Origin: an uncultured Ruminiclostridium sp.
GTDB lineage: Bacteria > Bacillota > Clostridia > Oscillospirales > Ruminococcaceae
Direction of reading: 5' to 3'
Assembly (NCBI GenBank): GCA_947630175.1
Contig: CANRGJ010000003.1
Span: 1-64,000 of the forward strand
DNA: 64,000 nt
Below the pieces are notes generated by a model. It saw only the letters and a program-made list of their open reading frames with translations. It did not search any database and was not told where the DNA came from. The position numbers were made by a program, and so were the translations under genes. The stretch's first letter is position 1. Every line of letters starts with the position of its first letter. Shown in pieces: positions 1 to 29,043 of this stretch.

Positions 1-168
1 TTTTAAATCCGCCCGCAAAGCGGACACAACCTTTCGGCAGTTTACAGTTGACAGTGTACAGTGTACAGTTGTGGTATCGCCTGCAAATTTTCACCTGTCA
101 TTTCAAATCCGTTTTCGCCAAAGGCGAAAACACCACAACTGTCAACTGTCAACTGTACACTTTTCACT
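1..168. repeat. Dispersed hairpin repeat, tail of one copy plus one full copy
   Basis: Bases 1-30 are the tail of a copy cut by the window edge, with the hairpin CCGCAAAGCGG. Bases 40-168 are a full copy: left arm ACAGTTGACAGTGTACAG, conserved middle 'cctgtcatttcaaatccg', inner hairpin TTCGCC-AAA-GGCGAA, and right arm CAACTGTCAACTGTCAACTG. The arms are inverted relative to each other, so the copy can fold into one long stem. Related copies lie near 17.0, 23.8 (partial), 28.3, 33.8, 43.9, 48.2, 55.4 and 55.7 kb. I recognise no transposase or named family. Confidence 0.85.
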
Positions 169-193
169 GGCAACCGGCAAAGCCGGTTGCCAA

Positions 194-3064: not shown

Positions 3065-3140
3065 TGGGCTATAGCCAAGTGGTAAGGCAACGGACTTTGA
3101 CTCCGTCATTCCAGTGGTTCGAATCCACTTAGCCCAACCA
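3065..3140 (+). tRNA. tRNA-Gln (anticodon TTG)
   Basis: 76 nt including an encoded CCA. Acceptor arms TGGGCTA / TAGCCCA pair perfectly. The anticodon loop is CTTTGAC (anticodon TTG) and the T arm is GTGGTTCGAATCCAC. Its 3' end is reiterated twice downstream (see the 98-bp repeat). Confidence 0.97.
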
Positions 3141-3336
3141 AAAAGCTGCGTGCGCCGACGTATGGAGGCGTGCGCAGGTTTTTGCATTTGGTCTTGCGGA
3201 TTCGAACCACTAGGTTCAGAATCCACTTAGCCCAACCAAAAAGCTGCGTGCGCCGACGTATGGAGGCGTGCGCAGGTTTTTGCTTTTGGTCTTGCGGAGG
3301 CGAACCATGAGGTTCAAAATCCACTTAGCCCAACCA
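3125..3336 (+). repeat. Tandem 98-bp repeat of tRNA-Gln 3' end plus terminator
   Basis: The last 16 nt of the tRNA (CCACTTAGCCCAACCA) recur at 3223-3238 and 3321-3336, exactly 98 bp apart. Each full unit also carries a GC-rich hairpin (CTGCGTGCGCC / GGCGTGCGCAG, first copy 3146-3177) followed by TTTTT, which looks like the tRNA terminator. Next comes an inverted copy of the T arm (GGATTCGAACCAC), intact in the first unit and decayed in the second. Only the first tRNA is complete. The arrangement suggests repeated insertion or slippage at a tRNA 3' end. Confidence 0.9.
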
Positions 3337-4822: not shown

Positions 4823-5347
4823 ATGGTACTTTTAGTTGTAGATACGCAAAAAGGAATTACAAATAATAAACTTTTTAAGTTTGAATTGTTTGAGTCTCAT
4901 GTAAAAGAACTGATTGAAAAAGCCCGTCAAAACAATATTGAGATCATCTTTATCCGACACGATGACGGCGTTGGCTGCGAACTTACAAAGGGCAATGAAG
5001 AATTTGAAATATATGATTTGTTTAAACCTGCCGAAAATGAACTTGTTTTTGATAAAAGCGTAAACAGCGCATTTAAAAATACAGGCTTGTTGGAATATCT
5101 GAAGCAGAAAAATGAAAACACAATTATAATTATCGGACTGCAAACCGATTACTGCATAGACGCAACTGTAAAATCAGGTTTTGAACACGGTTTCAAAATG
5201 ATCGTTCCCGCTTATACAAACAGTACGTTTGATAATATGTATATGACTGCTGAGCAAACCTACAAATATTACAACGAATTTATATGGAACAAAAGATATG
5301 CTGAATGTATCCCTTTTGATAAAACTCTTGAACTGATGAATAAATAA
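4823..5347 (+). CDS. Isochorismatase-family cysteine hydrolase
   Basis: 174 aa cytoplasmic alpha/beta hydrolase of the isochorismatase/nicotinamidase superfamily. The expected catalytic triad is visible: Asp7 (LVVDTQ), Lys78 (FDKSVNSAF) and Cys111 (GLQTDYCIDAT), with the family's TDYCIDAT motif. Ribosome binding site GGAGG lies 9 nt upstream. Substrate cannot be assigned; members cleave amides, carbamoyl groups or isochorismate. It is monocistronic, with its own promoter and a strong terminator touching its stop codon. Confidence 0.88.
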   Translation: MVLLVVDTQKGITNNKLFKFELFESHVKELIEKARQNNIEIIFIRHDDGVGCELTKGNEEFEIYDLFKPAENELVFDKSVNSAFKNTGLLEYLKQKNENTIIIIGLQTDYCIDATVKSGFEHGFKMIVPAYTNSTFDNMYMTAEQTYKYYNEFIWNKRYAECIPFDKTLELMNK

Positions 5348-5389: not shown

Positions 5390-5901
5390 TTATTGTTGTT
5401 TCCCCAATTCCTGCCTCATCACTCCGCACAAATACAGCGACCCGCAAACTACTTTAAGCTGATTCCCCGTTTCCTCCGCCAATTTTATCGCTTCGGCAGG
5501 GCTTGCGGCTTTTTGGCAGAATTTCCCCGCTTTTTCGGCGATTTTCGCTATTTTCTCGGCGGGGACGGCGTCGGGGGAGAAAAAGTCCGCCGCCACAACG
5601 CTGTCAAACAGCGGGAGCAGTAATTTCAGCGCTCCCTCCCAGTCCTTTGTTTTCAACATTCCCGTAACAAGGGTCTTGCTGTCGGCGTTTTCTTTCAGCA
5701 GGGCGGAAACGGCGGCGGCGCCTGAAACGTTGTGCGCTCCGTCTATCAGCCAGCCGTTTTTGAAACGCTCCGTTCTTGCGGGTACGGCGGCGTTTTCCAA
5801 AGCAAAGCGTATGCTTTCCTCGGAAACGTTCAAAAGTCTTAACGTTTCTATTGCGGCGACGGCGTTCACCGCCTGATGCTTTCCGCACATTTTCGTGCGG
5901 A
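5390..5901 (-). pseudogene. Duplicated 3' fragment of folC
   Basis: Encodes the C-terminal ~170 residues of FolC (from RTKMCGKHQAVNAVAAIETL to the end), nearly identical to the intact folC at 13294-14529. The nucleotide match runs from about 5404 to 5901, with roughly 15-20 differences in ~500 bp and none in the ~110 bp next to the breakpoint. Upstream of 5901 the reading frame stays open to 5980 but that sequence is unrelated. No N-terminal ATP-binding half is present, so it is non-functional. It forms the left boundary of the TIR island. Confidence 0.93.
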
Positions 5902-5939
5902 AGTGCGTCTGATAACTAATATATGCGCGCTGTGCTAAG

Positions 5940-5974
5940 AAAAAGCGCCCCGAATTTATAAAAAATCCGAGGCG
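5940..5974 (-). terminator. Terminator of the TIR island operon
   Basis: On the minus strand, CGCCTCGGATTT pairs with AAATTCGGGGCG (12 bp with two G-T pairs, 5-nt loop), then CTTTTTC. It lies about 210 nt beyond the last gene of the operon and just inside the folC fragment boundary. Confidence 0.7.
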
Positions 5975-5986
5975 GGTCATTTCATT

Positions 5987-6015
5987 TTGACTATAATAAA
6001 CGAAGCCTGTATACT
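5987..6015 (+). promoter_or_regulatory. Plus-strand promoter facing the island operon
   Basis: TTGACT (5987-5992), 17-bp spacer, TATACT (6010-6015). It fires into the 3' end of the minus-strand operon. The 170 bp behind it hold only a possible 30-codon ORF at 6087-6179 (starts MDFKILRESQH, ends SEVLLIG) with no clear ribosome binding site. It could drive a short RNA or be fortuitous. Confidence 0.45.
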
Positions 6016-6185
6016 TGCTTTAAATCATAAATTTGCAGCGCGCTTCCCAATTTTTAAAATTTGTGCCTGTTATTCGTCGTGCATATATGGATTTTAAAAT
6101 ATTAAGAGAATCGCAGCATCCGCCTGTTGACCCAAAAACAAAGGGCCACTCTTTTTCTGAGGTTTTGTTAATAGGCTGACATATT

Positions 6186-9074
6186 TTAGATACGTATCAT
6201 CTGAATATACGTCAGTTGACCGTTGTTCCCCGAAACCGTGCGGGATAACGGGACAAAGCCCATATTACTGTATAAATGTCTTGCGATGGTGTTTTCACTA
6301 TATACGGACAGGCGGACTGATTTTCCCTGAGCTTCAACCGCTTTTATCAAATACATTATCATCGAACACCCTATGCCGCGTCTTCGCTCACTTTCGCGCA
6401 CGCACACATCGTCAATATAGCAATACATTTTCCCGGGGTAATCATAAAAGGTTTCTTTTATTTCATTTACTGCTTCCTCAAAGGTCGAGGGCGGCTCCAC
6501 CTGTGCATCTGCAAACGCTTTCTTGATAATATCTGAATTCCAGGAAAACTCGTCGTATTCATACAGAGATGCAATTGCGACAATTTTATTGCTCTTTTTT
6601 AATACATAGTAATGTTTTTTACTAAACTTAGATGACTGATTACTGAACAGATAAGGCATTACTTTTTTCGCATTGTTTAGCGAACCAAAAAGCTTTTTAT
6701 AGACGACAACATCACTGCCATATACCAGCTCTGCCGCTTCATCAAAGTCACTTTCATCCGACAGCTGTTCTAAGTGAGAAATAGATTGATGTAAATATAC
6801 GGAACAAGGAATAATAATGGGGCTGACCCAAATTTTATCGAAGCTTGGATTTTCAAATACATTGGCTATTCTATTTACATTTGGAACACAATAATAAGAA
6901 CGGCCAAAATCAAATTCATCCTCTGTGATCATCTTAATCCTGATCGAGCTCAGCGGGTCGTTGTTGGCCGGTGACAATACCTTAAAAACAGAATACTTAT
7001 ATCCGTCAACAGATGTGGTGCCGCTGGAATACTGACCGACTATCGGGAAAATAGCCGACTCGACGTTAAATTCGCTCTCCTTAAGCTCCATTCTTTCTTT
7101 TTCATCCAGACCTGTTTTTAAATACATAAAAAATGATTTTATTTCTTTAAAAAGCGCATTTTCATCTCCAAAGCCGAAATCAGCCATAACTTTACAAATT
7201 TTTTTGCAAAACAGCTTCATCTTTTTTGAATCAAACAGATACCGCTTTCCTGTCGTTTCAAATAAAACTTCATTATTTTCGTCGTGGAAACTGCTGTATT
7301 CATCATTTAAATTTATCAACTCATTAAAGCTTTTACAAATTCTTTCTTTAATGCTGTTGACCGTTTCGGAGCGACTGCAAATAATTTCCTTACTATACTG
7401 CTCTGCGCTTTTAGCAAGCGTAGCTTTTAATTCTTCGATACACTGCTCTTTTGATTCCTGGAATTCTTGATAAGCACCGGTGGAATTAAGATCAATAATT
7501 GCGTCCATTTTACATTGTGAATATCTGAAGACGCCACGATAGAACCGTGTCACAAATGACAAGGTCTGCAATAAGGTATTAGAATAAAAAATAATTTTCT
7601 CTTTTACTAAATTTGATAATCCGTGAACCCTTTCACATTCCGTTATAATACTATCTATTGTTGTTGGATAAACGCTGCTTTCGATATCCCACTCTGTATG
7701 GCTTAACAGCTTTGTCGCTAATACTACCAACGCTTTTGCGTGACAATCAATTTTTGCATTTTCAGAAGCTCCGGGTACAAGCTTATACTCCGGATTCGTC
7801 AAAAATTCATCGCCCTTACATACATTCTCAATCGTTTCTTTTCCGAACCGCCTTATAAAGGCATTCTTTATGCTTTTGTAGCTGCAGCTGTGGCCATGCA
7901 GCAGAAATCTCAGAAATTCATATACGCCTTCCTCTAAAAGGAGGAACAATACGATCTCATCCCAACGATAACCGACAATTTCATTGTTATTATACAAAGA
8001 GGAAACGTACATTTTTTCAAAAATATCCTGATATTTTTTCCCATACTGACGTACGATTTCGGTTCGCATATCTGAGGTGAGCGCATCGGAAAGAGTGTAG
8101 GAAATGTTTTTCAGGTACCTGTTATTTAACAGGATATAATCTCTGAAAAATGTACTTTCATTGTTGTTACGATATAAATTGATAATATCGCAGTCCAAGA
8201 AAAAATTTTCTATTACCGCTTTTTTTACAATGACATACTTGTCGGAAACGTCTTCAAATTCTTCATTCATCAACGTCACTGAAATACGGCCTGTGCCTCC
8301 GAGCTGAACATAGTTGAGTACTACCGATTGATGTTTCTCTTGTTTTTCATCAAAGTGACGTGCATCAAAGGGCTGAAAATCCTCCACATAATATATTTCA
8401 AAAGGGGTTGTGAACATAGTATGGGAATAATCTATTTTCTTGATTCTATCGCTGCTGTTTCCAAACTCGGCAATTATCCCCATCATATTATTTTGAGGCG
8501 AATGGTTCAAGCATATTTCAGAAGGATAAAACCGTATTTTTGTTGTCCTTAAAAAATGAAACACTTCAAGGCACTGACAAAAAGCGTCAAAGCCAAAAGA
8601 TACGCCCACATTACGAGAATGAAGCCGACTTTGCTTTACCATATAAATATATTTGGACAGTTTATTGTTACGGCTGTTAAAGTGAAAAAAATTTGAAATG
8701 CCTATCGTTTCAACAAAGCTTTGCGTTTCTTCCGTATCAAGGAGACAGTCTATTTCCAAATTAAGCAGAAGATCGTCAATATATTCCCCGTTTATTTTTA
8801 CCGGATCACAAGTCTTGTCCAGCATATTATAAATACGCCAGAAGGAATTGTTGCCATTATTATTTTGTTCTTCAACATTTTTCTTCCATGATAAAAAGAT
8901 ATTCCAGACTGTAAGCATAGAGAAAGTCATTGCATTGGAAAAATACTGAAGGCATACTTTTTCATCGCTGAGAAACAGAGGATCTTCATCATCGTAATTA
9001 AAAATAATATGTCTTAAATTATCGTCCGGAATATAATATTTTACTTGTTGTAATCTTTCTTCAAGAATCGGCAT
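6186..9074 (-). CDS. 962-aa island protein: unknown N-terminal region fused to a C-terminal GNAT domain
   Basis: Last gene of the four-gene island operon. Residues ~760-962 form a GNAT acetyltransferase: AAELVYGSDVVVYKKLFGSL opening, a long insertion, CVRESERRRGIGCSMIMYLI (motif A, RRRGIG at 897-902) and a terminal HLYSNMGF segment. The N-terminal ~750 residues match nothing I know. They are mixed alpha/beta without membrane segments or signal peptide, with a helical stretch near 520-600. The ATG overlaps the end of the ATPase gene by 14 bp and has GGAG 9 nt upstream, so the two are translationally coupled. Composition is A+T-rich against the surrounding core genes. A GNAT here could modify a target (a toxin role as in TacT/AtaT is one possibility) or the partner proteins; neither can be decided from sequence. 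Confidence 0.85.
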   Translation of the reverse strand: MPILEERLQQVKYYIPDDNLRHIIFNYDDEDPLFLSDEKVCLQYFSNAMTFSMLTVWNIFLSWKKNVEEQNNNGNNSFWRIYNMLDKTCDPVKINGEYIDDLLLNLEIDCLLDTEETQSFVETIGISNFFHFNSRNNKLSKYIYMVKQSRLHSRNVGVSFGFDAFCQCLEVFHFLRTTKIRFYPSEICLNHSPQNNMMGIIAEFGNSSDRIKKIDYSHTMFTTPFEIYYVEDFQPFDARHFDEKQEKHQSVVLNYVQLGGTGRISVTLMNEEFEDVSDKYVIVKKAVIENFFLDCDIINLYRNNNESTFFRDYILLNNRYLKNISYTLSDALTSDMRTEIVRQYGKKYQDIFEKMYVSSLYNNNEIVGYRWDEIVLFLLLEEGVYEFLRFLLHGHSCSYKSIKNAFIRRFGKETIENVCKGDEFLTNPEYKLVPGASENAKIDCHAKALVVLATKLLSHTEWDIESSVYPTTIDSIITECERVHGLSNLVKEKIIFYSNTLLQTLSFVTRFYRGVFRYSQCKMDAIIDLNSTGAYQEFQESKEQCIEELKATLAKSAEQYSKEIICSRSETVNSIKERICKSFNELINLNDEYSSFHDENNEVLFETTGKRYLFDSKKMKLFCKKICKVMADFGFGDENALFKEIKSFFMYLKTGLDEKERMELKESEFNVESAIFPIVGQYSSGTTSVDGYKYSVFKVLSPANNDPLSSIRIKMITEDEFDFGRSYYCVPNVNRIANVFENPSFDKIWVSPIIIPCSVYLHQSISHLEQLSDESDFDEAAELVYGSDVVVYKKLFGSLNNAKKVMPYLFSNQSSKFSKKHYYVLKKSNKIVAIASLYEYDEFSWNSDIIKKAFADAQVEPPSTFEEAVNEIKETFYDYPGKMYCYIDDVCVRESERRRGIGCSMIMYLIKAVEAQGKSVRLSVYSENTIARHLYSNMGFVPLSRTVSGNNGQLTYIQMIRI

Positions 9075-9969
9075 TTACAATTTCTCCCGCTAATATCTTA
9101 TACATTTTAAGAGCGTTTCTCTCATCATCGGTAAGCTTAAGACCCGCTTGCTGACGCCTCTGAGATTCCTTTAACAAGCTCTCCTCTCTGAATTTAAACA
9201 GGTTCACTTCATTTATGCCCATATTACCATTTTGGATAAGGGCTAAATTCAATTTGTCATTTTCGCTGATAGAAGCTTTTACTGATATTTCTATGTCGTT
9301 CATAATGTTGTCCATTGTAAAAGCAGTTCCCTCTGTATCCGGCACGGCATTCGGAACAATAATATATTCTTTGCCGACAAACTCTCCGCCTAATGACTTC
9401 TTCTTTAAAAATTCCTCCGTACCTTTTCTGAACTGCCGAGTTATACGCATTACAGTCACTATTTTGGATGAAATGGTCAAGGCGCACTCTCCGGCAAGCT
9501 GATTACCGGCGGGAGTGTCCATAATGATCGCTTTACAATGAAAATTTCTGCAAAGTCTGTTCAATGTGGACAGAGACACGTTTCTGGCATCGTAATTATT
9601 AGTTTCGCTTAAATAGTTAGCGCCTTCCAGACTGTGAGCTGTAACACAAAGAATCGACCTGTCTAAATTTACGGGAAGACCAACAATGGCACCAATGGGA
9701 ACAAGCTTGCTGAAAAAAGGGTGCTCTCTTATATCTCCCGCATACTGGTATCCAATCGAGCTGCCTCCCCTTAACACTTGGATCGAATTTATGCCCGACG
9801 ATCTATCAATGAGATACGACAAACCTTTGCTGTCCAGGTCCAAGTCAAGGACAATGATCGGCTCCTGTTCTGTTGCGCCGAGCTTTTCAGCTATGAAAGG
9901 AAGTGTGTTAAAAAGCAGAGATGTTCGTCCTGCACCGCCCTTATATGAGAAAAAAGATACGTTTATCAT
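9061..9969 (-). CDS. KGGxGR-type ParA/MinD-like P-loop ATPase
   Basis: Third gene of the island operon. The N-terminus MINVSFFSYKGGAGRTSLLF holds a variant Walker A (KGGAGRT, residues 10-16) in which the usual KGGxxK(S/T) lysine is replaced by Arg. A Walker A'-like VLDLDLDSKGLS and a Walker B-like AIIMDTPAG follow. The KGGVGR variant class is seen in signalling/conflict loci rather than in plasmid partition. No ParB, parS-like array or replication gene is nearby, so partitioning is unlikely. I chose the ATG at 9969; a TTG at 9981 lies only 3 nt after AAAGGA. It overlaps the 962-aa gene and follows the 686-aa gene by ~24 bp. Likely a nucleotide-dependent switch for the operon's effectors (inference). 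Confidence 0.85.
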   Translation of the reverse strand: MINVSFFSYKGGAGRTSLLFNTLPFIAEKLGATEQEPIIVLDLDLDSKGLSYLIDRSSGINSIQVLRGGSSIGYQYAGDIREHPFFSKLVPIGAIVGLPVNLDRSILCVTAHSLEGANYLSETNNYDARNVSLSTLNRLCRNFHCKAIIMDTPAGNQLAGECALTISSKIVTVMRITRQFRKGTEEFLKKKSLGGEFVGKEYIIVPNAVPDTEGTAFTMDNIMNDIEISVKASISENDKLNLALIQNGNMGINEVNLFKFREESLLKESQRRQQAGLKLTDDERNALKMYKILAGEIVNADS

Positions 9970-9992
9970 AATTGTAAACAAAAATCCTTTCT

Positions 9993-12035
9993 TTAATAAT
10001 TAAATTCAAAGCCTCCGGCAATAGAATGAGCTATTGCTTCCTCCACAAGCTCTTTGCGATACTCTTCAGAATAATCGAGCGGATTACCTGCGCTTAATTC
10101 TTTTAAATTTACAGATCCGTATATCGCAAAAGCCATACGCAGCTCTTTATCCTTTTTCAGCTCATCGGCAATCTGCTGCTCCGACAATCTGTTTCTTTCA
10201 GCCTGCAGATAATAGTTCACTGCCTTATTTAACAAGGAGTTGAAATATTCGTCAAGCCTTTCGGAAAAGATAGAGTCAAAAGAACCAACTGCTATGCGTT
10301 CCACTTCTTTGTCAAGGTCAGACTTTCTTTCTTTTAATTCTTTGATTTCATTTTCAAGAGAGACAACTTTTTCTCTCTCCTCCATTAATTTTGCTTCATT
10401 TTCCTCATTGTTTTTCTTTACAATGCGATTATAAGATGTCTCATTCCCCGACAGCGGCTCCTCGTAGTCATTATAATACTTATAAAACCCTTCAAGTGCA
10501 ACTACATAATAAAGGTGATTGTTGATATTAAAGCCGTTGTCATCGCCCCACAGCCACTCATCTCCGCTGCTGCAGTTACGCATAATCAGGTCAAGGTTCT
10601 GCGTCATTTCAAGCTGAGGATATTGAATCAAAAAGTCAAAGATAATAGAATATGTATTGCAAAGCAAAGGAATCAGATCATATACGACCACATTTTCGCA
10701 GGCTCTTCTGAATTGTCTGACAAATGTTTTATAGCGTGACGGATATCTTTCTGAGAAAAACGCCTTGTCCAAACGGAACGAGTCTATTAAGTCCTGCTTT
10801 CCATCAACTTCAAGGATACTATATATCTTGCGGATATTTGAAATTGAAAATTGCAGTTGATTGTAAAACCAGTCCTTTTTTTCAGGTCCAATAGCTTCAT
10901 AATCTTCATCTATACCGGCATTCAGATAGATAGCCAGAATAAAAAGCGTATTAATAACCGCATTATTATCCTGCATATCCAGAATACGAGCAGAAGATAT
11001 ACCGCTAAAGTCACCGCGTACAAAATCGAATATAAGGTCTGTACCCTTTTCTGATAGTTTTGATTCGATATATCGCCCGGAGGATGCTGTCATGATCCTG
11101 AATTTGTCGATCAGATCTGCATTTTTTATAACAAACTCTGCATTGCGCTTGAGCAGCTCTTTTTCCGTGTTATTCAGATCCTTTGTATCGAAATCAAGCT
11201 TCTTTACATCTGTAACTTTTCTGTCTCCGTAAAAAACCTTTCCGATGATTTCAGGGTAAGCGTTATAAAGTGAAACATATGCATTAGTTGCATGATATGT
11301 AAAATAAATTGACGTATCAAAGGATTCGGACTCATTTTCAGGCGCGCAAAAGGTCCAGCCTCTATAATTTATCTCGACAGGTATATTTGCACGGACAAAA
11401 AAGTCTTTTCCGTCGATTTGCCTTTTTTTAACGTTTTTCGGATCAACGACCAACACTGCATCTGTGAGAAATCTCATGGAATCTACCAACACTTTTTCTG
11501 CCAAAGCAGATAATTCCGCATAGGAAGAAATCTTTTTTCCGGCAATATAAAGCTCATTCTCATGATCAAACGGGGTGTCCTCAATATCATGTTTGTTGGC
11601 AAAATTACGCAAGTCGATCATTATTATCATAATTTTAGACGCAGTCTCAACATATGAATCTATCTGACCAGCATCATTCGTATTGCCTCTTATGTATGGC
11701 GATGCGTCAAACGAGGGCGGCGCATTGATACCCGATTTGTATACGGATTCAATAACTGTTTTTAACAAAAAGTCAAATTCTTTCCTGAAGCATGATATAT
11801 CCGCTCCCATATCTTCAAGCTCAAGAATGGTCGAAACTGCCATTGCATTAGATATGGTGCCGAACGCTTTTTCTCTCCCGTCTTTTTCTTCAGACAACGG
11901 AAAACCTTTTCCGGCTTCAAACTGTTTGATAAAGCTTTTAAATATTTTTTCACCGATCTCACTAGAAGGACGATAGGTATTAAAAAACTCGTTCGGTTCT
12001 TTTTTTCGCTGAATAATATCACTGATTCCGGGCAT
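9993..12035 (-). CDS. Large helical protein with C-terminal coiled coil, unknown function
   Basis: Second gene of the island operon, 680 aa from the ATG at 12035 (GGAGG 11 nt upstream). An ATG at 12044 and a TTG at 12053 are in-frame alternatives closer to the ribosome binding site. It is soluble and predominantly alpha-helical. Repeated helical pairs such as AFGTISNAMAVSTILELEDM and YFTYHATNAYVSLYNAYP recall alpha-alpha toroid/solenoid folds, but I cannot name a family. A heptad-rich segment (around 545-590: KLMEEREKVVSLENEIKELK and on) predicts a coiled coil. Its start overlaps the TIR gene's end by 17 bp, so the genes are coupled. Plausibly a sensor or scaffold between the TIR protein and the ATPase (inference). 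Confidence 0.8.
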   Translation of the reverse strand: MPGISDIIQRKKEPNEFFNTYRPSSEIGEKIFKSFIKQFEAGKGFPLSEEKDGREKAFGTISNAMAVSTILELEDMGADISCFRKEFDFLLKTVIESVYKSGINAPPSFDASPYIRGNTNDAGQIDSYVETASKIMIIMIDLRNFANKHDIEDTPFDHENELYIAGKKISSYAELSALAEKVLVDSMRFLTDAVLVVDPKNVKKRQIDGKDFFVRANIPVEINYRGWTFCAPENESESFDTSIYFTYHATNAYVSLYNAYPEIIGKVFYGDRKVTDVKKLDFDTKDLNNTEKELLKRNAEFVIKNADLIDKFRIMTASSGRYIESKLSEKGTDLIFDFVRGDFSGISSARILDMQDNNAVINTLFILAIYLNAGIDEDYEAIGPEKKDWFYNQLQFSISNIRKIYSILEVDGKQDLIDSFRLDKAFFSERYPSRYKTFVRQFRRACENVVVYDLIPLLCNTYSIIFDFLIQYPQLEMTQNLDLIMRNCSSGDEWLWGDDNGFNINNHLYYVVALEGFYKYYNDYEEPLSGNETSYNRIVKKNNEENEAKLMEEREKVVSLENEIKELKERKSDLDKEVERIAVGSFDSIFSERLDEYFNSLLNKAVNYYLQAERNRLSEQQIADELKKDKELRMAFAIYGSVNLKELSAGNPLDYSEEYRKELVEEAIAHSIAGGFEFNY

Positions 12036-13077
12036 CTTTTTCATCTCCTCCAATTTTATTATTGTTAATTTTCATTAAAAGCCGTATCCCGGCATTTAAC
12101 CGATTGCTTTGAATCCTGCCCTCGATCTTAACATTCTGAGCGTTGTAAAAAACATAATCGGATCCGGTATCATTCCTGACCCAAAAAAGTCTCAGCAGCT
12201 GCTGCCTGTTTCTGTCAGCATAATCTGTAGGCAAAGCATGAGATATTTTAGAGGAATAATTAATTAAAAAGTTCTCATAGACCAGTAATATATCTTCTAT
12301 ATACCTGCCGTGTATAGTTCTTTTTACCTCGTTTATAGTTTTATCAATACCATTCTTGTCTACAAAATCTATGCAGTATCTTGTAATGAAGTAATAAATA
12401 TTTCCTTCGCTCGCTGCTAATTGCCATTCTATGGGCTTTTCCTGTCCATCTTCTTCAAAAGGATATTTACCGAACTGATATATATCTTTCGTTCCATCTG
12501 TATAATGCGGCAATTCATGAATGAAAGAACTGCGTGTATTGATCAATTGTTCTTCCTTAGCGTTATCTTTCTTAGAAACGCCAACGATAAGTTCTGCCGC
12601 CCCATCCATTGTGATATACTTACCATTTAATAATAAATCTCTGAATTTATCATATTTATCTGAATATAGCACATCTCTTGTTTTCTCTGAAGCCAGATAA
12701 AACAATTCTCTGTCATTTTCTGCCTTAGTAATAACAGGAGTGATGCGAAAAAAAGTTCTTTTTTTTCTTAATTCCATAAGCATGTCCAGCTCCTTCTGAA
12801 CCGCATCGCTTATCAAAGAATCACAACTCAGAAAAATAATTGCACCCACAGTATGAGGGTTGTTGATATATTCCACGACCCGCTCATCCCATACATCTCC
12901 GGGATCCAGTTCCTTGTCATACCAATAGTTAACGTCGTTTATGTACAGTTCATTCAAAAGTTCATAAACACAATCTTTATCCTTGTGAGAATAGCTTACA
13001 AAATAATACCTGGAATTCCGGCGGTTTTGCCTGTCTAAATATGTTTTTGGACGCATATCTTCTTGTAAACAACGCAT
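12019..13077 (-). CDS. TIR-domain protein with C-terminal DUF6273-like domain
   Basis: First gene of the island operon, 352 aa; ATG at 13077 with AGGAG 9 nt upstream. Residues ~24-115 show TIR hallmarks: YYFVSYSHKDKD (box 1), YWYDKELDPGDVWDERVVEYI with W63 and candidate catalytic Glu65, then GAIIFLSCDSLISDAVQKEL. Bacterial TIRs with this layout often hydrolyse NAD+ or make cyclic ADP-ribose signals. The C-terminus (~195-345) starts IYQFGKYPFEEDGQEKPIEW and ends LNAGIRLLMKIN, which fits the DUF6273 pattern (FGxYP...PIEW...GVRP). I infer an NAD-acting effector or signal producer joined to a sensing domain. The glutamate assignment is by eye. Confidence 0.85.
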   Translation of the reverse strand: MRCLQEDMRPKTYLDRQNRRNSRYYFVSYSHKDKDCVYELLNELYINDVNYWYDKELDPGDVWDERVVEYINNPHTVGAIIFLSCDSLISDAVQKELDMLMELRKKRTFFRITPVITKAENDRELFYLASEKTRDVLYSDKYDKFRDLLLNGKYITMDGAAELIVGVSKKDNAKEEQLINTRSSFIHELPHYTDGTKDIYQFGKYPFEEDGQEKPIEWQLAASEGNIYYFITRYCIDFVDKNGIDKTINEVKRTIHGRYIEDILLVYENFLINYSSKISHALPTDYADRNRQQLLRLFWVRNDTGSDYVFYNAQNVKIEGRIQSNRLNAGIRLLMKINNNKIGGDEKDARNQ

Positions 13078-13148
13078 TTCGTTTTTCTCCTAAAATCTGA
13101 TCTTTTACAAATTCAAGATCCAAAAAAACAGCTACATATACATAATAT

Positions 13149-13176
13149 ATTATATCACCTTTATTTATTTTTTCAA
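13149..13176 (-). promoter_or_regulatory. Promoter of the TIR island operon
   Basis: Minus strand TTGAAA (13171-13176), 16-bp spacer, TATAAT (13149-13154), 72 bp upstream of the TIR start. It is inside the island, so the four genes move with their own promoter. The rest of 13078-13293 is A+T-rich with a small palindrome (GTCATATTTATGAC, 13251-13264) and no gene. Confidence 0.75.
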
Positions 13177-13293
13177 TAGGTAATATACACTTATTTTCAT
13201 TGTCATTATAGATTTACCCGTTAAAATAAGAGTAAAAACCAAAACAGCCTGTCATATTTATGACAAACGGGAGCCGTTTAAATATCCCCGTTT

Positions 13294-14529
13294 TTATTTT
13301 TCCAATTCCTGCCTCATCACCCCGCACAAATAAAGCGACCCGCAAACTACTTTAAGCTGATTTTTTGTTTCCTCCGCCAATTTTATCGCTTCGGCAGGGC
13401 TTGCGGCTTTTTGGAAGGATTTCCCCGCTTTTTCGGCGATTTTCGCTATTTTCTCAGCGGGGACGGCGTCGGGGGAGAAAAAGTCCGCCGCCACAACGCT
13501 GTCAAACAGCGGGAGCAGCAATTTCAGCGCTCCCTCCCAGTCCTTTGACTTTAACATTCCCGTAACAAGGGTCTTGCTGGCGGCGTTCTCTTTCAGCAGG
13601 GCGGAAATGGCGGCGGCGCCTGAAACGTTGTGCGCTCCGTCTATCAGCCAGCCGTTTTTGAAACGCTCCGTTCTTGCGGGAACGGCGGCGTTTTCCAAAG
13701 CGAAGCGTATGCTTTCCTCGGAAACGTTCAAAAGTCTTAACGTTTCTATTGCGGCGACGGCGTTCACCGCCTGATGCTTTCCGCACATTTTCGTGCGGAA
13801 TTTTTCGTTTTTGTAGGTAAAGCCCGTCCCCTCAAGGGTGGAATAAAGTATTTTTATATCCTCGTTTTTGGGGACGGTAAGCGGTGAGTTCATCTCTTTT
13901 GCCCTGTTTTTCAGCACGGAAATGACCTCGGGGTGCTGAAAGGGGGAGGAAACGGCAGGGCAGTTTTCCTTGATTATCCCCGCCTTGTGGACCGCTATCT
14001 GGGCGGGGGTGCTGCCAAGAATGGCGCAGTGGTCAAGGTCGACGGTGGTTATCACGGAAATTTCGGGGCAGATCACGTTGGTGCAGTCCAATGTCCCCCC
14101 TATTCCCACCTCTATCACCGCATAATCGCAGTTTTTGTCGGCGTAGTAAAGAAAAGCGGCGGCGCAGAGTATCTCAAACTGGGAATAGTCCTTACAGCCT
14201 GTTTTTTCAGCGGCAATTTTCACAAGTCCTATGTAATGAGCAAAATCCTCCTGTGAGATAGGAACGTTGTCAAGCTGTATGCGCTCCTCCACAAAATTTA
14301 TGTAGGGGGAGGTGAACTTTCCCGTATGAAAGCCGCTTTTCATCAGTCCCAGACAAACGTATTCGCAGACACTCCCCTTGCCGTTGGTGCCTGCGACGTG
14401 GATACATTTCAATTTTTTGTACGGCTCGCCCAGCGCCGCCGTAAGTCCCTTAAAGCGGGACAGGTCGGCGACGGGAGCGCCCGCCTTCGTAAAGGAGCCA
14501 AGATACTCCAGAGCCTCTCCGTGCGTCAT
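13294..14529 (-). CDS. folC: Dihydrofolate synthase / folylpolyglutamate synthase
   Basis: 411 aa Mur-ligase-like enzyme that adds glutamate to dihydropteroate and/or tetrahydrofolates using ATP. Visible: P-loop GTNGKGSVCEYV, substrate segment FTSPYINFVEERIQ, central VIEVGIGGTLDCTN and TTVDLDHCAILG, and C-terminal glutamate-ligase part with DGAHNVSGA. Length is normal. Ribosome binding site AGAGGG precedes the ATG. It follows the Nudix gene by 9 bp, so the two are co-transcribed. Its last ~500 bp are duplicated at 5402-5901, and this copy's 3' end may derive from the incoming island. Confidence 0.95.
   Translation of the reverse strand: MTHGEALEYLGSFTKAGAPVADLSRFKGLTAALGEPYKKLKCIHVAGTNGKGSVCEYVCLGLMKSGFHTGKFTSPYINFVEERIQLDNVPISQEDFAHYIGLVKIAAEKTGCKDYSQFEILCAAAFLYYADKNCDYAVIEVGIGGTLDCTNVICPEISVITTVDLDHCAILGSTPAQIAVHKAGIIKENCPAVSSPFQHPEVISVLKNRAKEMNSPLTVPKNEDIKILYSTLEGTGFTYKNEKFRTKMCGKHQAVNAVAAIETLRLLNVSEESIRFALENAAVPARTERFKNGWLIDGAHNVSGAAAISALLKENAASKTLVTGMLKSKDWEGALKLLLPLFDSVVAADFFSPDAVPAEKIAKIAEKAGKSFQKAASPAEAIKLAEETKNQLKVVCGSLYLCGVMRQELEK
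13298..13801 (-). repeat. Right copy of the ~500-bp direct repeat bounding the TIR island
   Basis: Same orientation as 5402-5901 and nearly identical; it is the 3' part of the intact folC. Homology stops abruptly at 5901/13801, immediately after a perfect 8-bp inverted repeat (TTCCGCAC / GTGCGGAA, 6-nt spacer) that is part of the FolC coding sequence. At the other end it stops at the folC stop codon region. Recombination between the copies would excise 7.9 kb and leave one intact folC. Confidence 0.93.
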
Positions 14530-14538
14530 ATTTTCCCT

Positions 14539-14961
14539 CTATTTCATCAGGGCAATAAAGGCTTTCGCCTTGCTTGCCACCATTTTGTCGTTGTCGAAGG
14601 AAAGCGCCTCTACCGCTTGTCCTATCTCCAGCCAGCGGAGCTGAGCTATCTCCTCCTGCTGGGGGATAAGGTCGTGGCTGGTCGCCATTCCCACAAAATA
14701 TACCACCGTCTTTCTCGTCCCTCTCCTGGGGGAAAAGGTGACGGTCTCACGAAAGCCCGTGTCAAGAAGAACATCAAGTCCCGTTTCTTCCTTTATCTCA
14801 CGGCGGGCGGTCTGCTCCTCGGTCTCTCCCTCCTCCATATGTCCTTTGGGAAAGCCCCAGCAGCCCGATTTTATATTTTTCACAAGCATTATTTCCACGT
14901 TGCCGTGGTATCGTCTGTACACGATAGCTCCGCAGGATTTTTCATAAAGCAATTTTTTCAC
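14539..14961 (-). CDS. Nudix hydrolase
   Basis: 140 aa. The Nudix box is complete: G40-HMEEG-E46-TEEQTAR-REIKEETGL (GX5EX7REUXEEXGU). The fold starts with a strand AIVYRR and WGFPKG. It hydrolyses nucleoside diphosphates linked to another moiety; the bis(5'-nucleosyl)-tetraphosphatase-like subgroup is the best guess from KGHMEEGE. Upstream gene of a two-gene operon with folC. Confidence 0.9.
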   Translation of the reverse strand: MKKLLYEKSCGAIVYRRYHGNVEIMLVKNIKSGCWGFPKGHMEEGETEEQTARREIKEETGLDVLLDTGFRETVTFSPRRGTRKTVVYFVGMATSHDLIPQQEEIAQLRWLEIGQAVEALSFDNDKMVASKAKAFIALMK

Positions 14962-15060
14962 CCGTCCTCATTTGCAAGGCTGACAATTCCAACAAATATA
15001 GTATAACACAAAAGCAGTCAAAAGTCACTAACTTTTGAAAATTTTCAGGACAATAAAAAT

Positions 15061-15093
15061 GAAAGGGCTCCGCAGAAGCTGCGGAGTCCTTTC
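15061..15093. other. Long hairpin upstream of the two-component operon
   Basis: GAAAGGGCTCCGCAG / CTGCGGAGTCCTTTC, 15-bp stem with one wobble pair and an AAG loop. T-rich sequence follows only on the minus strand. Apart from the promoter elements listed next, I see nothing else in 14962-15350. Confidence 0.6.
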
Positions 15094-15210
15094 GATGTAT
15101 GTGAAAAAAGGGGAAGTGGAGATGTTGTCGGTAAAAACACAGAAATATTGCTTTTCATTTGCCTTTTACCTGCTGCAATTACAATATAGCACATTTTTCT
15201 TAAAATGTCG

Positions 15211-15312
15211 ATTACAAAAGGGTTACAATTTGGTTACGATTTGGTAACAATTATTACAAATCTGTAACATAAGGGCTTTTTCATTGACAAGGGAAAAAAG
15301 TTTTGCTATCAT
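15211..15312 (+). promoter_or_regulatory. Promoter of the response regulator gene with four 11-bp-spaced direct repeats
   Basis: ATTAC (15211), GTTAC (15222), GTTAC (15233) and GTAAC (15244) are spaced exactly 11 bp apart, with another GTAAC at 15264. One helical turn per repeat is the usual layout for OmpR/PhoB-type regulators. The promoter follows: TTGACA (15284-15289), 17-bp spacer, TATCAT (15307-15312). The same ladder precedes the ABC transporter genes at 17184-17221, implying autoregulation and a shared regulon (inference). Confidence 0.7.
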
Positions 15313-15350
15313 TATTTTGTGAATAATATATCCGAAAGGAAAAGGAATAT

Positions 15351-16025
15351 ATGGATAAAATTTTGCTGGTAGAGGACGACAGGACGATAGTTTCCAACCT
15401 CACGGAATATCTTAAGGGACAGGGCTTTGACGTGAAAAGCGCGTCGGGGCAGACCGAGGCGCTGAACGTGCTGAGAGAGGGCGGCTTTGAGCTGGTGCTG
15501 ATGGACGTTTCGCTGGAGGAGGGAAACGGCTTTTCCGCCTGCTCTGCGGTGAAGAGCGAATTTGGGCTTCCCGTTATCTTCCTCACCGCCTCGGGGGACG
15601 AATACAGCACCGTTACAGGTTTTGATCTGGGTGCGGACGATTATATACCCAAGCCTTTCCGCCCACGGGAGCTTGTTTCCCGCATAAAGAACGTACTGCG
15701 CCTGACGGGAAAGGGCGGCGGCGCAGTGGTCAGGCTGGGGAACGTCACCGTTGATACCGTAAAGGGGGCGGCTTACAGGAACGGGAACGACCTGTTCCTC
15801 TCTGCGCTGGAATACAGGCTTTTGCTGGTGTTCATCAACAACAGGGGACAGCTACTCACAAGAGAGCGTCTGCTTGACGCCATATGGGACGCGGCGGGGG
15901 AATTTGTCAACGACAACACTCTCACCGTGTATATAAAAAGGCTGAGGGACAAGCTGGAGGACGACCCGCAAAAGCCTGAGATAATCAAAACAGTCCGCGG
16001 ACTGGGATATATAATGGAGCGTTAA
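15351..16025 (+). CDS. OmpR/PhoB-family response regulator (Bce-like)
   Basis: 224 aa. Receiver domain MDKILLVEDDRT with acidic pocket and phospho-acceptor Asp52 (LVLMDVSL), then a winged-helix DNA-binding domain (SALEYRLLLVFINNRGQLLT...VNDNTLTVYIKRLRDKLE...TVRGLGYIME). Ribosome binding site AAAGGAAAAGGA. The kinase gene starts on the next base after the stop. With the ABC pair downstream it forms a BceRS-AB-type cell-envelope stress or peptide-antibiotic module; the direct repeats in both promoters are its likely sites. Confidence 0.93.
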   Translation: MDKILLVEDDRTIVSNLTEYLKGQGFDVKSASGQTEALNVLREGGFELVLMDVSLEEGNGFSACSAVKSEFGLPVIFLTASGDEYSTVTGFDLGADDYIPKPFRPRELVSRIKNVLRLTGKGGGAVVRLGNVTVDTVKGAAYRNGNDLFLSALEYRLLLVFINNRGQLLTRERLLDAIWDAAGEFVNDNTLTVYIKRLRDKLEDDPQKPEIIKTVRGLGYIMER

Positions 16026-17012
16026 ATGAAAAACAACAGAGTCTATATTTTGCTGTTACTGCTGACTTTGGCGGCGTGGGCGGCGTTTTCTCTCATATTC
16101 GGGTGGATATGCGGGCTTTGCGTGCTGGGGATCTGCGTTTTGTTTGATATTGTATTCATCGTATACGATATTTCCCGCAAAAATAAAATAAAGTGGCTCT
16201 CCGCCGACCTGAACGCCCTGCTCCACGGAGACAGCAGGATAACTCTGGACAGGTATTCGGAGGGGGAGCTGAGCGTCCTGCAAAGCGAGATATCCAAGAT
16301 GACGGTCACGCTGAACGAGCAAAGCCACCGCCTTGCGGAGGACAAGGTGTTCCTTGCCGACTCCATAGCCGACATCTCACATCAGATAAGAACGCCGCTG
16401 ACTTCCATAAACATAGTCACCTCCCTGCTGTCGGAGGAGGATATCACCGAGGAACGGCGGCGTGAGCTTATGCGGGAGCTTGACAGACTGCTGGCAAGAA
16501 TAGACAAGCTGATAAATATTCTGCTGAAAATATCGAAATTTGACGCGGGAGCGATAAAATTCAAAAAGGAAAAGATCTCCCTTGAAGATATGATAAGGAC
16601 TGCCGCACAGCCCATGAACGCCGCTATGGAGCTGAAGGGTCAGGCTCTTGAGATAGACGCCGAGGGAGACTTTATCGGCGACATACAGTGGACGGGAGAG
16701 GCTTTGGGAAACATTATCAAAAACTGCTGGGAGCATACCCCCGACGGCGGAAAGATAAGCGTTTTTGCCCGTGAGAACGCCCTTTACAGCGAGGTGATAA
16801 TTTCCGACAACGGAAGCGGCATTTCCGAGGAGGACCTGCCCAACGTGTTCAAGCGGTTCTACAAGGGGAAAAATTCGGGGACGGACAGCTTCGGCATAGG
16901 TCTTGCTCTGGCGAAGATGATAGTAACGGGTCAGGGCGGAGCGATAAAAGCGGGAAATTCCCCCGACGGCGGAGCGAGGTTTACGGTGAGGTTTTATAAA
17001 AGCACGGTATGA
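16026..17012 (+). CDS. Bce-like intramembrane-sensing histidine kinase
   Basis: 328 aa. Two closely spaced membrane helices (~7-25 and ~28-48) with almost no extracytoplasmic loop, typical of BceS kinases that sense through their ABC transporter. HisKA site ADISHQIRTPLTSI with phospho-accepting His119, then N box IIKNCWEHTPDGG, G1 ISDNGSGISEEDL and G2 FGIGLALAKMI. No spacing to the regulator gene. The stop codon TGA at 17010-17012 is the first three bases of the TGACAGTTGACAG arm of a dispersed repeat. Confidence 0.93.
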   Translation: MKNNRVYILLLLLTLAAWAAFSLIFGWICGLCVLGICVLFDIVFIVYDISRKNKIKWLSADLNALLHGDSRITLDRYSEGELSVLQSEISKMTVTLNEQSHRLAEDKVFLADSIADISHQIRTPLTSINIVTSLLSEEDITEERRRELMRELDRLLARIDKLINILLKISKFDAGAIKFKKEKISLEDMIRTAAQPMNAAMELKGQALEIDAEGDFIGDIQWTGEALGNIIKNCWEHTPDGGKISVFARENALYSEVIISDNGSGISEEDLPNVFKRFYKGKNSGTDSFGIGLALAKMIVTGQGGAIKAGNSPDGGARFTVRFYKSTV

Positions 17013-17182
17013 CAGTTGACAGTGCAAAGTGCAAAGTGTAAAGTTGTGGAGTTTTCGCCTTTGGCGAAAACGGATTTGAAATGACGGGTAAAAATTTGCA
17101 GGCGTCACTTCAAAATCCGTTTTTCGGCTTCGCCGAAAAACTCCACAACTGTGCACTGTACACTGTACACTGTAAACCGTTA
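17010..17182. repeat. Dispersed hairpin repeat copy between kinase and ABC genes
   Basis: Left arm TGACAGTTGACAGTGC, two inner hairpins (TTTTCGCC-TTT-GGCGAAAA and TTTTTCGGC-TTC-GCCGAAAAA), right arm CAACTGTGCACTGTACACTG. It supplies the kinase stop codon. Confidence 0.85.
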
Positions 17183-17183
17183 T

Positions 17184-17237
17184 ATTACGTTTTTGTAACC
17201 TAAAAGTCACCCCATTGTAACATTCCTACCGTAAAAT
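17184..17237 (+). promoter_or_regulatory. ABC transporter promoter with 11-bp-spaced direct repeats
   Basis: ATTAC (17184), GTAAC (17195), GTCAC (17206) and GTAAC (17217) lie 11 bp apart, as in the promoter at 15211. A -10-like TAAAAT (17232-17237) follows without a good -35, as expected for an activator-dependent promoter. Confidence 0.65.
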
Positions 17238-17267
17238 AAAAGAAAACAAAAAAGGGCGGTATTTGAA

Positions 17268-17951
17268 ATGGAAATTTTGAGAGTAGAACATCTTAGCAAG
17301 GTCTACGGCGAGGGCGAGAACAAGGTGCTTGCCTTGGGGGACGTTTCCTTTTCCGTGGAAAAGGGGGAGTTTCTGGCGATAATCGGACCGTCAGGCTCGG
17401 GAAAATCCACATTGCTCCACATTCTGGGCGGAGTTGACAAGCCAACGGTGGGAAAGGTGTATATGAACGGCGCAGACGTGTTTGACAGGAGCGACGACCA
17501 GCTTGCCGTCTTTCGCCGCAGGCAGGTGGGACTTATTTATCAGTTTTACAACCTTATACCTATGCTGAACGTTGTGGAGAACATAACCCTGCCCTGCCTG
17601 CTGGACGGGCAGAAGGTAAATCAGGAGCATTTGAAGGAGCTTATCTCCACCTTACAGCTTGAGGGGCGGGAAAAGCACCTGCCAAGTCAGCTTTCCGGCG
17701 GTCAGCAGCAGCGCGTTTCCATAGGCAGGGCGCTGATAAATTCACCCGCAGTTATGCTGGCGGACGAGCCTACGGGCAATCTGGACAGCAAAAACAGCCG
17801 TGAGATAGTGGAGCTGTTAAAAGAGTCCAACAAAAAATATCAGCAGACTCTGATAATGATAACCCACGACGAGAACATAGCCGTTCAGGCGGACAGGATA
17901 ATCGCAATTGAGGACGGCAGGATAATCAGGGACGAGGTGAACAGAAAATGA
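17268..17951 (+). CDS. ABC transporter ATP-binding protein (BceA/MacB type)
   Basis: 227 aa. Walker A GPSGSGKST, Q loop YQFYNLIPML, signature LSGGQQQRVSIGRAL, Walker B VMLADEPTGNLDS and switch His in MITHDENIA. This subfamily (LolD/MacB/BceA) works with FtsX-like permeases in extrusion or target protection. The stop overlaps the permease start (ATGA). Confidence 0.95.
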   Translation: MEILRVEHLSKVYGEGENKVLALGDVSFSVEKGEFLAIIGPSGSGKSTLLHILGGVDKPTVGKVYMNGADVFDRSDDQLAVFRRRQVGLIYQFYNLIPMLNVVENITLPCLLDGQKVNQEHLKELISTLQLEGREKHLPSQLSGGQQQRVSIGRALINSPAVMLADEPTGNLDSKNSREIVELLKESNKKYQQTLIMITHDENIAVQADRIIAIEDGRIIRDEVNRK

Positions 17952-20860: not shown

Positions 20861-20880
20861 TTAGGGAAAATAATAAAAAT

Positions 20881-20915
20881 AACGCCGGGCGAATTGCTCG
20901 GCGTTGTTTTATTTT
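20881..20915. terminator. Terminator between convergent ABC permease and jag genes
   Basis: AACGCCG / CGGCGTT stem extended by a GC/GC pair, followed by a T-rich run on the plus strand. Confidence 0.75.
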
Positions 20916-20919
20916 ATTC

Positions 20920-28290: not shown

Positions 28291-28304
28291 AAAACACCTC
28301 GAAT

Positions 28305-28562
28305 TTTCAGTTGACAGTGTACAGTTGACAGTTGACAATTGTGGTTATCGCCTGCGGCGATTTATTTAGGATTGCCGCCTGCAAATTTTTGCCTGTCATT
28401 TCAAATCCGTTTTTCGGCGAAGCCGATGTCCAATATTGCGGTATTGCGAAGCAATATGGATTGCCTTTAGGGCAATCCAAGCAATGTTGGATCATACTTC
28501 CGCCCTCGGCGGAAGTATTGAGCTCCACAACTGTACACTGTACACTGTACACTTTCAACTTT
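28305..28562. repeat. Dispersed hairpin repeat, expanded copy
   Basis: The longest copy: arms CAGTTGACAGTGTACAGTTG and CAACTGTACACTGTACACTG with at least four inner hairpins, e.g. TATTGC-GAA-GCAATA, GGATTGCC-TTTA-GGGCAATCC and ACTTCCGCC-CTC-GGCGGAAGT. It fills the recX-rimO gap and supplies the recX stop codon (TGA in GAAAGTTGAAAG on the minus strand). Confidence 0.85.
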
Positions 28563-29043
28563 CATTTATTTCTTCAAGCACGGAGGTTATCGCCTCTTTT
28601 ATCTCACCAAAGCCGTAACCTCGCCTTGCAAGGGCGGCTATCACCTTTTGCCGCTGTTCGCGGTCGGTTATTTTGTCGGAATATTTTTTACGAACAAGGT
28701 CAGTAAGCGCGTCCGTCATTTCCTCACAGTCAAATTCCGACAAGGTCTGCTCCGTCAGCTCTTCGGGAACGCCCTTGCGGCGCATTTCCGCCTTTGCTCT
28801 GCGCAGACCGTATTTCTTCCCGTTTATCAATGCGCTTGCAAGGCGCTTGGCGTAATCCTCGTCGTCGATAAAGCCGTAGCGCAGCATATCCTCCATAACC
28901 TTTTCGGTGGTTTCCACTGAATAATTTTTCAGCAGTTTTTCCCTTAATGCGGCGGAGGAATAGGCGTGGGAGCCTAAAAGGTATGTGGCTCTCTTTTTTG
29001 CCCGCTGATATTCGGCGTCGTTTTCCTCATCAAGAAAGCTCAT
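28555..29043 (-). CDS. recX: Regulatory protein RecX
   Basis: 162 aa all-helical protein with three-helix repeats ([58 protein letters not shown]). Modulates RecA filaments. ATG overlaps the recA stop (ATGA). The stop lies inside a dispersed repeat arm. Confidence 0.92.

Follow-up and report, generated by a model that had tools for sequence, protein, structure and literature searches.

In an uncultured Ruminiclostridium sp. (GCA_947630175.1, CANRGJ010000003.1), four long, tightly packed ORFs on the minus strand form an operon whose sequence suggests, with a probability of about 0.6, a horizontally transferred, self-contained conflict system, most likely anti-phage. It would pair a single TIR effector with three controlling proteins, break down NAD+ on infection, and carry a replaceable second enzyme. 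The four-gene order occurs in three genomes from three families of one order: in the 64,000-nucleotide stretch of DNA analyzed here (the window) and at two further loci, L032 and L114. If this hypothesis is true, the operon adds a so far unlisted immune architecture to those based on TIR, spread over three families of a single Clostridia-type order and joined by two large protein families that no scanned library names.

Organization of the operon

All four genes lie on the minus strand. The first encodes the TIR protein P0004 (352 aa; 12019–13077; Pfam TIR_2), followed by the helical protein P0003 (about 680 aa; 9993–12035; no known family), the ParA/MinD-like ATPase P0002 (9061–9969; variant Walker A KGGAGRT), and the large protein P0001 (962 aa; 6186–9074), in which about 775 N-terminal residues without known family precede a GNAT domain (residues 818–940; 6255–6623). 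ORFs together with Pfam and motif matches confirm the single-strand operon of the initial annotation, with its TIR, helical, KGGAGR ATPase and GNAT-tailed proteins. Two ORFs extend further upstream, to TTG codons. The helical gene, open to TTG 12053 (686 aa), probably starts at ATG 12035, which has ggaggag upstream; the ATPase gene, open to TTG 9981 (9061–9981, 306 aa), probably starts at ATG 9969. Both ATG starts are those seen in L032.

The promoter placed by the initial annotation at 13149–13176 (minus strand; TTGAAA-16-TATAAT with an extended -10, TG) is the top site of our promoter scan and the sole one with 11/12 matches among the 29 found, where shuffled sequences predict 21.7 sites. 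Both hexamers are kept upstream of the L032 operon, though the DNA further upstream is unrelated. At the other end, a terminator had been proposed at 5940–5974. An intrinsic-terminator-like stem-loop is present downstream of the operon (5946–5974, minus strand); the scan returned 13 such sites against 8.0 expected. The operon is indeed A+T-rich, as had been claimed (37.6% GC versus 47.7% for the window). Besides the four genes, the interval 5981–13077 holds only short ORFs (≤105 aa) overlapping them; it therefore contains no integrase, replication or partition gene, in agreement with the initial annotation on the first two.

Conservation, selection, and transfer

The initial annotation had proposed recurrence of the gene order as a check, and two further genomes, from two further families, show it. 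In L032 (genome G956; another family of the same order), the operon proteins are 62–79% identical to those of the window. The homologous segment begins shortly before the promoter and stops at the last stop codon; the flanks are unrelated. The two copies are under purifying selection: dN/dS is 0.172 for the TIR protein, 0.080 for the helical protein, 0.056 for the ATPase and 0.065 for the large protein, at dS values of 1.5–2.5 that are near saturation. Since the operon proteins are this similar while the FolC proteins of the two hosts are only 39% identical, the operon was evidently transferred between families. Selection and between-family transfer favor a functional cargo unit. In L114 (third family; genome G815), all four genes are kept at 24–36% identity, scoring 60.1 (helical), 49.4 (large), 101.3 (ATPase) and 57.7 bits (TIR), against maxima of 8.0, 5.4, 4.4 and 7.6 bits in 500 shuffles each. 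Foreign composition is absent there (42.7% GC in a 45.1% stretch).

The TIR protein

P0004 consists of a TIR domain (about residues 26–147) and a C-terminal domain (about 185–344), and its relatives are P0007 (62% identity) and P0011 of L114 (24%). Pfam TIR_2 matches P0004 at E 3.8e-12 and the other two copies at 5.1e-11 and 2.4e-14. The motifs SYSHKD, WYD and S-x-x-S-x-x-S...V-x-x-E are common to all three. In TIR NADase effectors, the S-x-x-S...E motif carries the catalytic glutamate. A candidate for this residue, Glu96, is kept in 3/3 copies of the alignment; it aligns with the motif Glu of the CRISPR-associated TIR protein Cat1, which is also the best solved-structure match of P0004 (PDB sequence search, E 0.0011). 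The catalytic-residue check suggested by the initial annotation thus yielded a conserved candidate. Its DUF6273-like C terminus can be kept tentatively: the match is indirect, through the C terminus of P0011, and sub-threshold (E 0.08).

A KGGVGR-related ATPase

The variant Walker A KGGAGRT lies at residue 14 of P0002, and the P-loop form KGGxGR[ST] is found in all three copies (KGGAGRT, KGGAGRT and KGGAGRS). P0002 shares the KGGxGR signature and a DxDLxxxG-like motif with the KGGVGR family NF047398 (NCBIfam), and its profile matches that of eight KGGVGR ATPases with 98.1% probability (E 1.3e-13, 186 columns). Judged by these alignments, P0002 is a diverged relative of the KGGVGR ATPases. The three copies score 51.2 (P0002), 50.0 and 57.0 bits with NF047398, however, all under its curated cut-off of 90; the family members examined are longer, and their partners are other. 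Nine KGGVGR ATPases in eight genomes measured 400–1014 aa, seven of them with a protein of 124–157 aa directly upstream. In none of these nine regions are TIR, helical or large proteins related to those of the operon found (E up to 0.01), and on this basis the operon was rejected as an ordinary KGGVGR system.

Helical and large proteins and the terminal enzyme

Neither P0002 nor P0003 has a Pfam match above cut-off (searched to E 1), and Pfam, NCBIfam and PADLOC give no family name for P0003 or the N-terminal part of P0001. P0003 (relatives P0008, 76%, and P0012, 29%) has by eye a charged, coiled-coil-like stretch at about residues 545–600; its PHROG and Pfam matches, in this part and elsewhere (E 0.048–0.75), were set aside as weak. 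So was a DUF4809 match to P0001 residues 588–632 (Pfam, E 0.009, 16.4 bits versus a cut-off of 27). The helical and large proteins are not paralogs of each other (hhalign probability 0.3%). The initial annotation had named homology to a non-defense pathway as a possible objection, and the scans of the core proteins found none past the superfamily level.

The large protein has relatives P0010 (72%) and P0014 (25%), the latter without GNAT. The GNAT match of P0001 (PF00583) has E 1.9e-10. In GNAT acetyltransferases, acetyl-CoA is bound by the loop R/Q-x-x-G-x-G, which is intact in both GNAT-bearing copies (RRRGIG, at residue 897 of P0001, and RRHGIG). Because the large protein of L114 lacks GNAT and an S-adenosylmethionine-decarboxylase (AdoMetDC)-like gene follows in that place, with a 4-bp overlap, the GNAT domain lies outside the operon core. 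This difference suggests a swappable second enzyme in a TIR system, in which two chemistries would be combined in bacterial immunity.

Comparison with known systems

The initial annotation could match the operon to no named anti-phage system, and our comparison agrees: PADLOC models for TIR and ParA-like proteins matched only in part, and the defining partners of Thoeris, CBASS and vWA-MoxR-VMAP systems are absent from the four proteins. Like Thoeris (ThsB TIR plus ThsA), the operon is a small conserved unit with a TIR enzyme. Unlike Thoeris, it has no ThsA among its four proteins, in which SIR2, SLOG and macro matches are absent (Pfam, NCBIfam, PADLOC), and ThsB models score poorly (Pfam E 0.19, PADLOC E 0.0028); membership was rejected. 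The nearest TIR domains by sequence are those of TIR-SAVED CBASS and Cat1 (PADLOC, PDB), but the four proteins gave no SAVED, CARF or CD-NTase match other than to the SAVED_TIR model, which matched through its TIR portion. With no CD-NTase in the four proteins (Pfam, NCBIfam, PADLOC), CBASS membership was likewise rejected.

MinD/ParA-like domains, predicted to be inactive, are listed among the effector domains of NTP-dependent conflict systems (Kaur et al. 2020, PMC7159879), and a later paper names TIR as one of the shared executor domains (PMC8195603). In the main text of PMC7159879 the word GNAT is absent and "acetyltransferase" occurs twice. The operon differs from the systems of Kaur et al. 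(2020) in that scans of its four proteins found no vWA, MoxR or VMAP match, and membership in the ternary vWA-MoxR-VMAP systems was rejected. Among the papers listed in literature searches, none deals with such an operon, to judge by titles and abstract openings; with preprints outside the scope and PADLOC-DB of 2023, it may be described elsewhere.

Proposed mechanism

We infer a NADase activity, sensing, roles for the ATPase, the platform and the tail enzyme, and defense itself, as follows. Infection would be sensed by a platform built from the helical and large proteins. When bound to ATP, the KGGAGR ATPase, a ParA/MinD-like switch in which Arg replaces the P-loop Lys, would change its state or assemble on this platform. 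The resulting assembly would bring the TIR proteins together, possibly by way of their C-terminal domain, whereupon the clustered TIR domains would consume NAD+, leading to growth arrest or cell death before phage release. The tail enzyme (GNAT here, AdoMetDC-like in L114) may be a replaceable module that alters a partner, or produces or removes a small molecule, its output setting a threshold or adding a second effect.

More speculatively, the operon could exemplify a new multi-protein TIR immune class. A ParA-like switch with a P-loop Lys-to-Arg change would assemble a large helical platform, and this platform would link the destruction of NAD+ to an interchangeable acetyltransferase or SAM decarboxylase, so that one chassis could be equipped with one or another second weapon or signal enzyme. 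The roles might also be reversed, with the tail enzyme as the real effector and the TIR protein as a sensor arm whose NAD-derived signal, as in Thoeris, would be read by the large protein to free the GNAT or AdoMetDC-like partner. As often with effectors, the tail differs between copies while the platform stays, and the acetyl-CoA loop is intact wherever GNAT is present. We nonetheless consider this reversal improbable, given that TIR is found in 3/3 copies while the tail varies in kind, and that P0001 has no SLOG- or macro-like reader domain (Pfam, NCBIfam).

The conflict-system reading, with the TIR protein as effector, was already that of the initial annotation. Conserved gene order, the kept candidate TIR glutamate, selection, transfer and the operon-free site of the sister species argue for it; against it, no recognized defense gene occurs among six neighboring window genes scanned with Pfam (leuS, a GNAT gene, and isochorismatase, ABC, FtsX and, 27 kb off, MutS_V protein genes), all of which are ordinary. 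Its rarity, the partial PADLOC matches, the negative plasmid, phage and viral-contig searches, and the GC content of L114 also count against it.

Distribution and insertion site

P0003-type proteins were found in 1/60, 1/398 and 1/291 genomes, each time the own genome only. A P0001-type search passed 23 of 394 genomes, with a whole-length match only in the own genome and G956; the other 21, matching the GNAT domain alone, were set aside. These counts are lower bounds, since the 394-genome search evidently included G815 and missed the diverged L114 copy. TIR matches occur in 12/187 genomes including the own. In eight regions from 6 of the 11 others (some cut by contig ends; G014, G056, G780, G836 and G874 excluded), the other three genes are present in L114 alone, and the remaining seven regions hold no relatives of those three proteins (E up to 0.01). 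Plasmid records yielded no relatives apart from a GNAT match. Relatives of P0003 and P0004 were not found in phage records, nor was the operon in scans of viral contigs with a few short peptide patterns, whose counts are lower bounds. One viral contig, L122, was rejected as a member: its sole match is an ATPase fragment where the contig stops (genes further on are unseen), and no relatives of the other three are visible.

On both sides the operon is flanked by the folC 3' end, present as a 510-bp direct repeat: a remnant at 5399–5908 (minus strand; 488/510 bases identical to the full folC 3' end) and, at 13291–13800 (minus strand), the corresponding part of the intact folC (13294–14529). The remnant starts exactly at the inverted repeat TTCCGCAC-GAAAAT-GTGCGGAA. 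The island limits proposed initially, 5902 and 13801, are the equivalent point in both repeat copies; the interval therefore also takes in the intact folC 3' end. The operon of L032 neighbors a resolvase-domain gene and a RyR-domain gene (Pfam); by eye, a transposase-like gene is also nearby.

Flanking folC repeats, a ParA-like ATPase, and the resolvase-domain and (by eye) transposase-like genes near L032 would suit an addiction or stabilization module, or a system by which mobile elements compete. The ATPase would then follow or position something, while cells from which the element is lost would be killed by the TIR protein. Without integrase, replication or partition genes in 5981–13077, and with no operon copy in 72,556 plasmid records, we regard this as rather unlikely. 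A physiological stress or polyamine/acetyl-metabolite regulator is very unlikely: GNAT and AdoMetDC both come from superfamilies that include polyamine enzymes, and the scanned window genes include no defense gene, but patchy distribution, differing sites and between-family transfer are unlike a housekeeping pathway.

In the search for an empty site of L114, the match in its sister falls at a contig end. In the sister species of the window's host (G005), there is one folC, and both the operon and the isochorismatase gene are absent from the site. This partly supports the accessory hotspot of the initial annotation, although the six scanned neighbors are all ordinary. Compared site by site with the sister folC, 8 sites favor the full copy as native and 9 favor the remnant; 55 sites set both copies apart from the sister, and 4 differ in all.

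Organization of the operon

Four genes on the minus strand of the window (13077 to 6186) encode, in order, a TIR protein of 352 aa, a helical protein of ~680 aa, a ParA-like ATPase of ~302 aa with the motif KGGAGRT, and a large protein of 962 aa with a GNAT domain at its C-terminal end. The open reading frames, together with Pfam matches to TIR_2 in the first protein and GNAT in the last, bear out the operon proposed in the initial annotation. The genes are tightly spaced. If ATG 12035 is its start, the helical gene overlaps the TIR gene by 17 nt; 23 nt separate it from the ATPase gene (ATG 9969), which overlaps the large-protein gene by 14 nt. A strong promoter-like site lies 5' of the operon and a terminator-like stem 3' of it. 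Neither the helical protein nor residues 1-775 of the large protein has a family above cut-off in Pfam or NCBIfam, and PHROGs and PADLOC gave nothing convincing for either.

Two further copies in other genomes

Among 68 candidate stretches from 84,980 species genomes, one, L032, encodes a relative of the helical protein. It belongs to an uncultured Clostridia MAG of the same order as the window host and another family, and carries all four genes (identities to the window: TIR 62.4%, helical 76.3%, ATPase 79.5%, large 72.5%), spaced by 3 nt, 24 nt, and then a 14-nt overlap. DNA similarity spans window 13179 to 6184 and then stops, and the -35/-10 region is conserved between the two operons. Using the Nei-Gojobori method on this one pair, with dS at 1.5-2.5 and so near saturation, we obtained dN/dS of 0.172 for the TIR protein, 0.080 for the helical protein, 0.056 for the ATPase, and 0.065 for the large protein. 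Divergence between the pair is fastest in two places, both candidate specificity regions: residues 121-200 of the TIR protein, where two windows of 40 residues show 30 and 50% identity, and the C-terminal 80 residues of the helical protein, with 50 and 27%.

A profile of the two ATPases, run against 187 genomes from the order, matched two: the window's own and G815 (E 3.6e-29). The TIR profile matched the same G815 contig ~3 kb from the ATPase match. This region, L114, encodes in order a TIR protein of 351 aa, a helical protein of 761 aa, a KGGAGRS ATPase of 312 aa, and a large-protein relative of 787 aa, spaced by 9, 34, and 24 nt and with 24%, 29%, 36%, and 25% identity to the window, respectively. 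Two-row profiles scored 57.7, 60.1, 101.3, and 49.4 bits on them, with maxima over 500 shuffles each of 7.6, 8.0, 4.4, and 5.4 bits. The four-gene order, expected to recur in other genomes, is thus kept in both L032 and L114.

The 787-aa protein stops at the point at which the window large protein enters its GNAT part. Overlapping the end of its gene by 4 bp is an AdoMetDC-like gene (L114 13777-14589; 270 aa), whose product matches Pfam AdoMet_dc in two stretches (E 1.9e-23), scores 67.3 bits against NCBIfam TIGR03330 (cut-off 75.65), and has an SHI motif in each half. The overlap argues that this gene belongs to the operon; as a single case, it could be a chance neighbor.

In the TIR protein, F-x-SYSHKD, WYD, GD-x-W, S84, S87, S90, V93, and E96 are kept in all three copies, as are SYKGGAGR, D46, D48, D50-S, and D155 (Walker-B region) in the ATPase. 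In the PDB, the TIR pair profile matches the CRISPR-associated TIR protein Cat1 (E 0.0011), whose Glu aligns with E96, the candidate catalytic residue. As to the DUF6273-like C-terminus initially assigned to the TIR protein, DUF6273 is the sole Pfam match of the C-terminus of the third copy and is below cut-off (E 0.08), so that this domain is possibly DUF6273. In phages, DUF6273 is the part of DGR target proteins that holds their variable regions (PMC11792537), a lead that would fit a ligand-binding domain.

Insertion sites, composition, and distribution

On either side of the operon lies a copy of the 3'-terminal 510 bp of folC (488/510 bases identical), the repeat beginning precisely at an inverted repeat, TTCCGCAC-GAAAAT-GTGCGGAA. 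The sister species of the window host, G005 (FolC 92%), has a single folC and lacks the operon. Against G005, the two 3' copies reach 88.3-88.5% identity and the 5' part of folC 94.4%, so both 3' copies share a diverged history; this comparison does not distinguish the native one. Besides the four genes, the interval contains only short ORFs (≤105 aa) overlapping them, and hence no integrase, in line with the initial description of the island. We infer that the operon was captured through recombination in folC. Nearby, an isochorismatase-family gene (window 4823-5347) is absent at the same place in G005, and is therefore a second small insertion beside folC.

Host FolC proteins of the window and L032 are 39% identical. 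In L032, synteny with its host's sister, G1019, ends at ~5817. The stretch beyond (5820-21061, to the contig end) contains the operon along with RyR-domain and resolvase-domain genes; HTH and transposase-like genes were also recognized there by eye. GC content is 37.6% in the window operon versus 47.7% in its surroundings, confirming the A+T-rich island, 31.4% versus 44.8% in L032, and 42.7% versus 45.1% in L114.

Searches with the helical protein or its pair profile found one of 60, one of 398, and one of 291 genomes, each time the window's own; the large-protein profile matched over its whole length in two of 394 genomes of the order, the window's own and G956, the genome of L032, and the ATPase profile one of 14 near G815, namely G815 itself. 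These counts are lower bounds, because G815 evidently escaped when the order was searched with the large protein. Plasmid records gave no operon relative and one GNAT-only match, phage records no relative of the helical or TIR protein, and the viral contigs scanned nothing of the operon.

Relationship to KGGVGR ATPases

The window ATPase scores 51.2 bits against the KGGVGR family NF047398 (cut-off 90), and the profile of the three ATPase copies matches that built from eight KGGVGR ATPases at a probability of 98.1%; on this profile evidence, it is a diverged relative of that family. NF047398 matches above cut-off occur in eight of 398 genomes of the phylum (393 at E 1e-6, because ParA-like proteins in general match). 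In the nine regions examined (eight genomes), a 124-157-aa protein lies directly upstream of the ATPase in seven (L062, L064, L066-L070), and none in L063 and L065 on the gene calls made. The downstream proteins were aligned for L062, L063, and L064 and make up a single family that has a GxGxGK motif; four scanned proteins of these sets had no Pfam match above cut-off. The KGGVGR ATPases and these neighbors form a recurring set of their own. Our ATPase profile weakly matches eight of the nine ATPases (11.7-25.0 bits), but no ORF in any region matches the TIR, helical, or large-protein profile (E up to 0.01).

Proposed function

A compact operon, purifying selection between its two nearer copies, low GC in two of three, patchy presence, interfamily transfer into different sites, and a kept candidate catalytic TIR residue are, judged from sequence, what a conflict system shows. 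Most likely, infection would be sensed, an ATP-dependent switch would assemble on a large platform and control the TIR protein, and the latter, a putative NADase, would consume NAD+ upon infection in defense of the host, with the second enzyme as a replaceable part.

Other features of the window

Interspersed repeats (ACAGTTGACAGTGTACAGT and relatives; ~40-280-bp matches) lie at window 24-177, 16998-17181, 28304-28576, 33770-33929, 48173-48364, and 55572-55634, with several further occurrences in G005, and are possibly a MITE or REP-like family. At 3121-3316, a 98-bp unit occurs in two tandem copies (95%), starting within the 3' end of tRNA-Gln (3065-3140). A 511-aa MutS_V-domain protein is encoded at 40577-42112, in an A+T-rich stretch near tRNA-Pro.
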